Assembly (NCBI GenBank): GCA_946061795.1
Contig: CAMGSK010000029.1
Location: 1-12,745 of the forward strand
Direction: 5' to 3'
DNA: 12,745 nucleotides
Origin: an uncultured Elusimicrobium sp.
GTDB taxonomy: Bacteria > Elusimicrobiota > Elusimicrobia > Elusimicrobiales > Elusimicrobiaceae
Below, one piece after another: positions 1,925 to 8,707 of this stretch (position 1 is its first letter; the number at the start of each line of letters is the position of its first letter). Position numbers and translations under genes: made by a program. The notes under the pieces are model-generated. The model was not told where the DNA came from. It worked only from the letters and a program-made list of their open reading frames with translations, and ran no database searches.

Positions 1925-1952
1925 TTGACTCGTTTTTTTTTTTTGATAAATT
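1925..1952 (+). promoter_or_regulatory. Promoter of the first pilin gene, with a T12 spacer
   Basis: TTGACT (1925-1930) resembles a -35 box. It is followed by CG and exactly twelve T (1933-1944), then TAAATT (1947-1952) as a -10-like box with 16-bp spacing. The alternative reading TTG-N19-TAAATTTTG also resembles the Bacteroidota -33/-7 layout. The predicted start falls near 1959, at the ATG. The same arrangement recurs before the second pilin gene (8109-8137), which supports function. The box assignment is inference. Confidence 0.55.
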
Positions 1953-1979
1953 TTGACTATGAACAAAATTTATCAAAAA
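1940..1979. repeat. Perfect 16-bp inverted repeat enclosing the pilin start codon
   Basis: The arms TTTTTGATAAATTTTG (1940-1955) and CAAAATTTATCAAAAA (1964-1979) are perfectly complementary around the 8-nt centre ACTATGAA. The ATG at 1959 lies in that centre. The core 11-bp arms and the T run recur at 8118-8162. It could be a dimeric-regulator operator or, if transcribed from upstream, an RNA hairpin that presents or hides the start codon. Confidence 0.8.
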
Positions 1980-2462
1980 TCCTTCTCCGGCGATAAAAAC
2001 GCCGGATTTACGCTGATAGAATTGCTGGTGGTTGTTTTAATCATTGGTATTCTGTCAGCCGTTGCCCTGCCGCAATATACGTTGGCGGTGGAAAAAGCCC
2101 ATATGACCGAAGCGCAGACGTTGCTGCGTTCTTTGATGACGGCGGAAAAAGTGTATTATATGGCCAATGGGCGGTATGCGGAACAATTTGACGATTTGGA
2201 TGTTTCCGTACCGGGTGCGACGGGACGGCGTTTTAATACCAAACACTTTACTTTCTTTACGCATACGGCCGGCACAGCGGCTAATTTTCATATTGATTGC
2301 CAACGTTTGGACGGAGCCTACGAAATAGACGGCTGGCTGTCAAAAGACGCAAAGTATGACAAGATTATGTGTAATCCAAAGTCGGATTTCGGTACGAAAC
2401 TGTGCAAGTCAATGGGTGCGATAGACCCCGATGTCAGTTCGCAATATTATGTGATGTATTAA
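1959..2462 (+). CDS. Type IV pilin-like protein (PilE type), orphan
   Basis: A 167-residue prepilin. The leader of 16 residues ends in Gly16, followed by FTLIELLVVVLIIGIL. This is the prepilin peptidase signature, with cleavage expected after Gly16, Phe17 at +1 and Glu21 at +5. The hydrophobic helix spans about residues 17-38 and continues as PQYTLAVEKA, as in PilE/PilA pilins. The C-terminal half has three Cys (114, 138, 149); the pair 138/149 may form the D-region disulfide. The ATG at 1959 is chosen over the in-frame TTG at 1953 because it sits at the expected transcript start; no Shine-Dalgarno sequence lies close to either, so translation may be leaderless. The gene is monocistronic with its own promoter and terminator, and no pilus assembly genes are nearby. 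The body is visibly more AT-rich than neighbouring genes. A pseudopilin of a secretion or uptake system is the alternative. Confidence 0.9.
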   Translation: MNKIYQKSFSGDKNAGFTLIELLVVVLIIGILSAVALPQYTLAVEKAHMTEAQTLLRSLMTAEKVYYMANGRYAEQFDDLDVSVPGATGRRFNTKHFTFFTHTAGTAANFHIDCQRLDGAYEIDGWLSKDAKYDKIMCNPKSDFGTKLCKSMGAIDPDVSSQYYVMY

Positions 2463-8086: not shown

Positions 8087-8108
8087 GGGCTGGGATTACC
8101 GGGAAGAG

Positions 8109-8137
8109 TTGCATTGGTTTTTTTTTTTTGGTAAATT
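8109..8137 (+). promoter_or_regulatory. Promoter of the second pilin gene, with a T12 spacer
   Basis: TTGCAT (8109-8114) and TAAATT (8132-8137) are 17 bp apart. The spacer contains exactly twelve T (8118-8129), as in the first pilin promoter. The predicted start is near 8144, giving a leader of about 33 bases that contains the ribosome binding site. The repeat of the layout at 1925-1952 is the main support. Confidence 0.55.
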
Positions 8138-8162
8138 TTGATCTGTAAACAAAATTTATCAC
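8118..8162 (+). repeat. Second copy of the pilin upstream cassette (T12 plus inverted repeat)
   Basis: This copy matches 1933-1976. After the T12 run, GGTAAATTTTG (8130-8140) and CAAAATTTATC (8150-8160) form an 11-bp inverted repeat with one G-T mismatch, around a 9-nt centre (ATCTGTAAA). Unlike the first copy, it lies wholly upstream of the gene. The ribosome binding site and ATG follow 15-26 bases later. Confidence 0.75.
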
Positions 8163-8176
8163 AAAAGAGGAAAGGT

Positions 8177-8707
8177 ATGAAAAATGCGTTTAAGAGCGAT
8201 TTAAAGGGGTTTACGCTCATAGAGCTTTTGGTGGTGGTGTTGATTATCGGCATATTGTCGGCAATTGCTTTGCCGCAATATGAAAAAGCGGTGGAAAAAA
8301 GCCGCGGGGCGGAGGCTATTTCCGCGCTGAACGGGTTATACCGGCAGTATGAATTATGCCGGCTGGAGCAAGATGACGAAAGAAATTGCGATATGGCCGG
8401 AGATTTTGAAAATTTTACGGTACCTCCCCCGGGAGAAAAACTGTCCAACGATTGTTATAAAACCAAGGATTGGTATTATTGCCCTCCGCAGCAGTCCGAC
8501 ATTATAGCCATTCGTCGGAGTTCTTCCTCTTCCGATTCTAAACCGTACAGCAATGCCAAAGGATTTTTAACGATGTGGGGGTATGGATGGGGCGATGATA
8601 AATGTGTGGGCACCATTACTTGTGACGCCGGAACGGATGCAGATTTTTGTAAAAAACTTGGATTTACCGCGACCAAACAAGGTTGCAGCGGGAAAGTCCA
8701 GCCGTAA
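8177..8707 (+). CDS. Type IV pilin-like protein (PilE type), Cys-rich, orphan
   Basis: A 176-residue prepilin. The short leader MKNAFKSDLKG is cleaved after Gly11 in the expected way, leaving FTLIELLVVVLIIGILSAIALPQ with Glu16 at +5. It continues as YEKAVEKSRGAEA, the usual PilE-like helix. The globular part has eight Cys (61, 71, 93, 102, 143, 149, 158, 170), which suggests several disulfides and an extracellular fold. It also has a Ser run (115-119) and a Trp/Gly patch (MWGYGWGDDK). The segment FCKKLGFT resembles LCKSMGAI of the first pilin, so the two are paralogues with diverged heads. The ATG at 8177 is chosen because GAGG (8167-8170) lies six bases before it; in-frame codons upstream are inside the cassette. 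It is monocistronic, more AT-rich than its neighbours, with no assembly genes nearby. Confidence 0.92.
   Translation: MKNAFKSDLKGFTLIELLVVVLIIGILSAIALPQYEKAVEKSRGAEAISALNGLYRQYELCRLEQDDERNCDMAGDFENFTVPPPGEKLSNDCYKTKDWYYCPPQQSDIIAIRRSSSSSDSKPYSNAKGFLTMWGYGWGDDKCVGTITCDAGTDADFCKKLGFTATKQGCSGKVQP

Follow-up and report, generated by a model that had tools for sequence, protein, structure and literature searches.

A shared T-tract promoter of dispersed pilin genes in Elusimicrobiales and a palindrome that might hide ribosome sites in read-through RNA

Two pilin genes in the window share an upstream element

The window, by which we mean the whole 12,745-nucleotide stretch analyzed here (contig CAMGSK010000029.1 of an uncultured Elusimicrobium sp., assembly GCA_946061795.1), contains two pilin genes that are preceded by the same succession of elements, namely, a TTG motif, a T12 tract, a left arm, a loop, and a right arm (Table 1). 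Both copies had been described in a sequence-only reading of this DNA and were confirmed by reading the sequence back. That reading saw 11-bp arms kept in both copies of a noncoding stretch. The arms are complete at pilin 1, but those of pilin 2 form only 10 regular pairs out of 11, the remaining one being a G·T; likewise, the right arm is noncoding at pilin 2, whereas at pilin 1 the loop contains the start codon (1959 to 1961), with the right arm falling within codons 2 to 6 (MNKIYQK). Neither this location of the start codon nor the leaderless geometry of pilin 1 had been noticed.

Table 1. Features of the two pilin elements (positions in the window)
Feature	Positions	Strand	Remarks
-35 element TTGACT, pilin 1	1925..1930	+	Read back from sequence
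T12 tract, pilin 1	1933..1944	+	Fills the -35/-10 spacer (16 nt = CG + T12 + GA)
Left arm GATAAATTTTG, pilin 1	1945..1955	+	Contains the -10
-10 hexamer TAAATT, pilin 1	1947..1952	+	Most frequent -10 of the family (239/337); begins exactly 12 bp 5' of the ATG
Loop ACTATGAA, 8 nt, pilin 1	1956..1963	+	Contains the start codon
Pilin 1 CDS, 167 aa, MNKIYQK..GFTLIELLVV	1959..2462	+	PF07963, E = 7.5e-9; ATG at predicted +1
Right arm CAAAATTTATC, pilin 1	1964..1974	+	Coding, within codons 2 to 6
A5 run, pilin 1	1975..1979	+	In read-through RNA, predicted partner of the T tract (16-bp stem)
-35 element TTGCAT, pilin 2	8109..8114	+	Read back from sequence
T12 tract, pilin 2	8118..8129	+	Spacer 17
Left arm GGTAAATTTTG, pilin 2	8130..8140	+	Contains the -10, TAAATT (8132 to 8137)
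Loop, 9 nt, pilin 2	8141..8149	+	Read back from sequence
Right arm CAAAATTTATC, pilin 2	8150..8160	+	Noncoding 5' UTR
Shine-Dalgarno region GAGGAAAGG, pilin 2	8167..8175	+	Predicted unpaired 0.89 in native versus 0.02 in read-through RNA (AAGAGG scored)
Pilin 2 CDS, 176 aa, leadered	8177..8707	+	PF07963, E = 3.9e-8

An Rfam search of the window gave no match at the gathering score, so that no known structured RNA family was recognized in it. Perfect 11-bp inverted repeats with loops of 6 to 10 nt occur at four places in the window, in the pilin 1 element and at 2463, 5218, and 8722; the last three look like terminators. Another inverted repeat, TCCGGCG/CGCCGGA, which is GC rich and perfect over 7 bp, lies in the early codons of pilin 1 (1986 to 1992 and 2000 to 2006). 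Judged by eye it is preserved in part of the paralogues, and it is predicted to fold in the native mRNA. The profile of ComP_DUS, a DNA-uptake-sequence receptor pilin, scored 26.2 bits on pilin 1 (1959 to 2459), just below its cutoff of 27.3.

The element marks a pilin regulon in the genome and across much of the genus

In the genome from which the window derives (1.30 Mb in 159 contigs, 85.6% complete), we found 32 exact inverted repeats of the form TAAATTTTG-N6-12-CAAAATTTA versus none of the reversed pattern, 36 sites of a longer inverted-repeat form within three mismatches (0 reversed), and 53 T10GATA sites (0 in the reversed control). The pilin N-terminal motif PF07963 has 78 matches in this genome, 75 of them above the cutoff. 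A pilin head lies within about 330 nt downstream of 44 of the 53 T10GATA sites; six sites stand at contig ends with just 7 to 118 nt of downstream sequence, and three precede other open reading frames (ORFs), on contigs C6, C71, and C93. The longest of the six contig ends (C116) shows 34 codons that start with MNKIYQK and lack the pilin motif, and the C6 site precedes a 19-codon ORF that starts with MNKNYQK. On C71 (position 39; locus L215), a T12 promoter with a Shine-Dalgarno (SD) sequence stands before the gene of a 390-aa, secreted-looking, cysteine-rich protein with CTKTCGxGYTLNEExCEC repeats, for which Pfam gave no match. On C93 (position 4559; L216), a DUF1796 gene (putative papain-like peptidase) starts at the leaderless T-tract promoter position, without a palindrome. 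Five contigs (C54, C60, C74, C96, and C125) begin or end near a conserved pilin head or element, so that the real copy number may exceed our count.

At least one T10GATA site is present in 49 of the 61 genomes of the genus (this genome included), with up to 103 sites per genome. The strict pattern TTG-N5-T12-GATANNNT was found in 19 of 29 genomes of the genus, in 4 of 12 from other genera of the family (all four from one genus), and in 0 of 40 from the other family of the order, while the reversed pattern was absent from all 81 genomes. Each species was represented by one assembly, mostly metagenomic, in which homopolymers may be misassembled. A scan of named genomes yielded at least 110 element stretches; among the 80 matches listed, one was labeled Pelagibacteraceae, which we took to be chance, and the rest were labeled Elusimicrobiales, Candidatus Avelusimicrobium, or “uncultured bacterium.” We also ascribed to chance a lone palindrome match in the sister family (G052, L049), around which 160 nt hold no T-tract/GATA promoter. 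Three T10-11 GATATGTCAAGC sites (L153, L187, and L199) with TTATCG upstream, for which no pilin head was found, were set aside.

In the pooled loci, those of this genome among them, a pilin head was found no more than 420 nt away from 337 of 363 distinct elements. Because some of the loci had been retrieved through a pilin or an element, this proportion overstates specificity. Pilin heads in the relatives were assigned by a short sequence pattern, not by HMM. The element counts leave out exact duplicates and elements with less than 60 nt of downstream sequence (less than 150 nt for the ATG-offset count, which also leaves out elements without a pilin head or an in-frame ATG), and those that draw on the named-genome scan take in about 30 stretches beyond the 80 listed. 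Related pilin paralogues are not independent observations.

The element had no match in viral contigs, nor in the phage and plasmid collections searched. A free mobile repeat (REP-like) and phage or plasmid cargo were therefore rejected, given the 44 of 53 sites at pilins and the absence of viral matches. The suggestion of a dedicated promoter for a dispersed pilin family, and not of a mobile repeat, is thus borne out by a genome-wide search, in which most sites precede pilin heads, and by the occurrence of the sites across much of the genus; the observation is real and larger than the sequence-only reading saw.

Promoter layout

The module consists of a -35 element TTGNNN, a 16-nt spacer made of the T12 tract, and an extended -10, TGATANNNT. 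TTG(A/C/T) was found at -35 distance in 324 of 337 pilin-linked elements, the other 13 having no -35 call; where several TTG candidates were present, the one nearest to a spacer of 16.5 was chosen. The -35 hexamers comprise TTGACT, TTGATT, TTGCAT, and variants. Of the 324 elements, 230 have a 16-nt spacer, 28 have one of 17 nt, and 8 have one of 18 nt; lengths from 12 to 20 nt were seen. Besides TAAATT, the -10 hexamers include TACACT, TACATT, TACCAT, TACCCT, TATAGT, TACAAT, TATAAT, and more. The tract is T12 in 202 of 300 elements and ranges from 8 to 16. By eye, the sequence 5' of the -35 is unrelated between copies.

The elements thus combine a TTGACA-like -35 and a TANNNT -10 at a spacing of about 16 to 18 nt, as sigma70-type promoters do. 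Going by these motifs, the module is laid out as an ordinary sigma70 promoter that has an extended TG, the all-T spacer being unusual. The special sigma factor that had been considered is unneeded, since TTGACT, TTGCAT, or TTGATT and TANNNT, mostly 16 nt apart, are sigma70-like, and a dedicated factor was dropped for this reason.

The start codon mostly lies at the predicted transcription start

Of 325 pilin-linked elements, 207 have their ATG at offset 14 (with the G of GATA as reference), one has it at offset 15, none at 16 to 24, and 117 at 25 or more; many of these last have it at 40 to 48, with an SD. If the -10 is TANNNT, then offset 14 is exactly +1. An ATG at the predicted +1 probably gives rise to leaderless mRNAs, and we infer both the transcription start and leaderless translation from this geometry. 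In these copies TANNNT stands exactly 12 bp before the ATG without an SD; the position of an SD is occupied by the T tract and the -10, and only 6 nt separate the -10 from the ATG. Copies without the palindrome, e.g., GATACCATTTTGATATG and GATACACTTTTTGCATG, also have the leaderless ATG position.

TANNNT about 12 bp upstream of the start has been read as a sign of a very short or missing 5' UTR (PMC3160421). The pilins, at exactly 12 bp, resemble these TA-led leaderless genes; the latter form a genome-wide class in many bacteria, whereas the former belong to a single gene family under a common promoter. That article's main text does not contain the string “Elusimicrob.” Taken by itself, the part of our interpretation that concerns promoter, regulon, and leaderless start appears highly probable.

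In one relative (G084), a separate family, GATATTCTCTCTTTATAA, was seen with the downstream SD AAGGAGAG(A/G)AAT (L186, L192, L198, and L204); its -10/discriminator is nearly complementary to the SD.

Arms of the palindrome covary

Whether copies are leaderless or leadered, the center of the dyad stays within about 1 nt of +1. Among 199 elements with the left arm GATAAATTTTG, including ones fetched by left arm and ATG alone regardless of the right arm, the arms pair at 11 of 11 positions in 148, at 10 in 34, at 9 in 10, and at fewer in 7. The leaderless pilins below the palindrome threshold number 18 of 204, and several of these 18 retain 9 pairs of 11. The right arm of leaderless copies encodes NKIYQ or SKIYQ in most cases, and their loop is nearly always 8 nt; in leadered copies, the right arm belongs to the 5' UTR and the loop varies by 1 to 2 nt. 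At least 9 pairs are formed in 24 of the 115 leadered pilins with the T-tract promoter (versus about 4% in a swap control), the other 91 scoring below 9 of 11. Two of the 24 (L317 and L368) resemble leaderless copies that have lost the ATG.

Leadered arms that differ in sequence and keep their pairing include TTTTGTT/AACAAAA, TTTGATT/AATCAAA, and TTTTACT/AGTAAAA, and a single genome (G069) has both of the first two. We hand-chose 11 distinct noncoding elements, aligned without gaps, from 37 leadered elements with an AAATTT- or CATTT-type left arm; in this set, which leans palindromic, 96.5% of cells are paired and three pairs changed on both sides. Their covariation score was 0.242 versus 0.146 for shuffled sets, of which 0 of 500 scored as high; the double-change pair count (130/500) and the pair-type count (286/500) were ordinary. 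Slid alignments of the same elements were 24 to 68% paired. Across 207 leaderless copies, pair 5-26 is A-T in 179 and C-G in 7, the remaining 21 having other combinations. Of the inner pairs of leaderless copies, 12-19 is formed in 50% (shuffled, 32%; maximum, 41%), and 13-18 shows no excess (29% versus 26% shuffled; maximum, 31%). Arm mismatches include A·C, and by eye G·U is not visibly favored. The arms covary as base pairs, and the palindrome persists, with compensatory changes, where the right arm is noncoding.

A hairpin predicted for read-through RNA

We tentatively read the element as the dedicated sigma70-type promoter module of a large, dispersed regulon of orphan pilins, combined with a hairpin that would form only in read-through RNA and hide the ribosome site; as a whole, this explanation is the best of those considered, though no better than tentative. 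RNA polymerase would read TTGNNN, 16 nt (NN-T12-GA), and TANNNT with the extended TG and would start at the A of the ATG in the leaderless majority and about 30 nt 5' of an SD-led ATG in many others. Because the T12 tract and the left arm both precede +1, native RNA would contain neither, and in palindromic members they would be found only in RNA coming from a neighboring gene. There, the T tract and left arm would pair with the right arm and A run over about 16 to 25 bp; in leaderless copies the AUG would thereby be enclosed in the loop, and in leadered copies the SD would be buried. A scattered pilin would then be made only when its own promoter fires, whatever the position of its gene in the genome. 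The T tract would set the promoter spacer and could tune or switch the promoter by slippage.

Folding predictions are consistent with parts of this scheme. For the read-through stretch 1925 to 1985, they give a stem of 16 bp (-14.1 kcal/mol; z = -4.7) whose loop contains the AUG. For 8108 to 8180, the predicted fold (-17.3; z = -3.3) pairs the SD with the U run in the minimum free energy structure, not in the centroid, and the native stretch 8139 to 8200 is predicted to be open (z = +0.5). We modeled leadered elements with the ATG at 36 to 60 after removal of near-duplicates. In 17 palindromic ones, the mean modeled probability of an unpaired SD was 0.11 in read-through versus 0.73 in native RNA, the former being less than half of the latter in 16 of the 17, and it was 0.27 when the left arm was shuffled and the U run kept. 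The model does not hide the AUG of this group (unpaired, 0.71 in read-through and 0.58 in native RNA). In 48 nonpalindromic leadered elements, the corresponding SD values were 0.39 (read-through), 0.69 (native), and 0.42 (left arm shuffled). SD burial, as modeled, thus comes mostly through the U run, and the left arm would contribute only in the palindromic group.

In a duplex test of 77 leadered elements reduced to 36 clusters, cognate left arms beat swapped ones modestly (8 clusters at ≤0.05; KS P = 0.013; letter-shuffle control, P = 0.033), and on reading the rows this advantage is not clear outside the TAAATTT family. In view of the modest signal, a general complementarity of left arm and SD in all leadered pilins is not claimed outside that family.

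The proposed lock is evidently not required, since 18 of 204 leaderless and 91 of 115 leadered pilins have the promoter without a good palindrome. For the leaderless majority it may also add little, because an internal AUG without an SD is poorly used, which weakens the lock reading. Both the lock function and switching by slippage are put forward as what the arrangement may do.

Replication polarity and dispersal

In G070, which has contigs of 916 and 700 kb, all 60 of 60 T10GATA sites lie on the leading strand. On contig 1 the sites are on the minus strand up to 185 kb and on the plus strand from 265 kb (28 of 28 as expected); on contig 2 all 32 are on the minus strand. The switch points were set from GC skew (about 215 kb on contig 1 and 150 kb on contig 2): in 20 sampled 20-kb stretches, of which one (570 kb) had a skew near zero, the skew changes sign within the gap between the minus- and plus-strand sites of contig 1, and on contig 2 it does so ahead of the first site. 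On the leading strand of these samples are 30 of 30 T promoters, 33 of 34 pilin-like ORFs, and 173 of 310 (56%) other ORFs of at least 120 aa. The T12 pilin promoters behind the G070 polarity are loci L219 to L238. In G084, 15 of the 16 contigs with at least two of the 90 sites listed (of 103) are one-sided. Selection for codirectional transcription and replication-linked insertion could both explain the bias.

A pilin head is located within 1.5 kb upstream of gatC in 11 of 30 neighborhoods. In six genomes (G067, G022, G032, G024, G010, and G080), the same small gene comes after uvrD, and the two are not separated by a pilin head. This presence and absence at gatC/uvrD indicates that cassettes were gained or lost at a conserved spot.

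Alternative explanations

The palindrome might instead be a double-stranded operator: a dimeric repressor (or coactivator) would bind the 30 bp from -14 to +16 and block the -10, and the palindromic pilins would constitute a regulated subregulon. Dimeric repressors use dyad operators over the -10 and +1, their classical location, and the element overlaps both. Such a subregulon agrees with a dyad center that never strays more than about 1 nt from +1 in either class of copies, with the nearly constant 8-nt loop of the leaderless ones, and with the restriction of the palindrome to part of the family. Half-sites of one consensus at fixed spacing are largely what the leaderless copies have (148 of 199 perfect) but not what the leadered ones have, whose arms covary within one genome and whose spacing differs by 1 to 2 bp. 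The covariation within G069 is expected from base pairing and not from two half-sites of one protein, and one leadered subfamily retains a bulged A. Loop variation and arm covariation within single genomes therefore fit the folding of a strand better than one operator sequence. For the dimeric regulator first suggested for these pilins, the center at +1 fits, but only a subset of them (see the counts above) has the palindrome. We consider the operator unlikely and nonetheless a serious rival of the read-through hairpin. Rather improbable is a by-product, in which only the promoter matters and an ancestral palindrome spread as the genes were copied, its perfection being maintained through gene conversion or through template switching at quasi-palindromes. 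Promoter and leaderless start are indeed conserved also without the palindrome, the paralogues are clearly related, and single mismatches occur; however, palindromes of different sequence occupy the same position in several genomes, coding and noncoding, and synonymous third-position changes are rare in codons 3 to 7, a rarity for which genome codon usage was not the yardstick.

The T tract raises a doubtful possibility of another kind, namely, that slippage alters the 16-nt spacer and flips single pilins on or off, as with the C-stretch of the Bordetella fim promoters. Since the tract is the spacer, its length would change promoter geometry; both lengths vary, as given above, and near-identical copies at different loci differ as T12/T14 and T9/T12. 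The predominance of T12 argues for a held optimum, and phase variation is compatible with the hairpin reading rather than exclusive of it. As for a recombinase or single-strand insertion site that spreads pilin cassettes, the 11-8-11 form of the palindrome, the presence or absence of cassettes at a conserved spot, and the polarity in G070 would suit it, but its position is locked to the promoter and not to a cassette end, many promoter-bearing pilins have no palindrome, and neither the viral contigs nor the phage and plasmid collections gave a match; we judge it very improbable.

Relation to known systems and significance

The closest likeness to the read-through hairpin is offered by the transposase genes of IS10 and IS200, which are protected from read-through by a hairpin; it arises solely in RNA entering from outside and masks the initiation region. 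The proposed pilin hairpin would likewise be limited to read-through RNA, but IS10 and IS200 are transposons, whereas the left arm of the pilins is the promoter's own -10 plus the T-tract spacer in a chromosomal family. With dyad operators the pilin element shares a palindrome centered on +1; unlike them, leadered pilin arms covary within one genome and their spacing varies. In the Bordetella fim promoters, the length of a homopolymer tract affects transcription (PMC1891110). The genes concerned, fim2, fim3, and fimX, are alike in being several fimbrial subunit genes, each with a homopolymer tract (a C-stretch) in its promoter, and unlike in that the C tract lies between the activator region and the -10 and that the genes are few. 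The pilin element has T12 within the 16-nt -35/-10 spacer, tens of pilins, the ATG at +1, and a palindrome, and its switching is putative. Searches of the open-licence literature, a scope outside which most subscription papers fall, listed no paper that describes the element.

Taken together, leaderless, scattered pilins would share one promoter design whose -10 and T12 spacer double as a lock arm in read-through RNA only, in cassettes strictly codirectional with replication (60 of 60 in one genome), which hints at replication-linked spread or strong orientation selection; in this full form the picture is rather doubtful. The strict replication polarity stands apart as a strong, unexplained signal. 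Through the element, a large, dispersed pilin family of the little-studied gut Elusimicrobiales becomes accessible by sequence, and leaderless expression of a whole surface-protein regulon, switching through a T-tract spacer, and the use of a promoter's own -10 as a lock against neighboring transcription are now testable.
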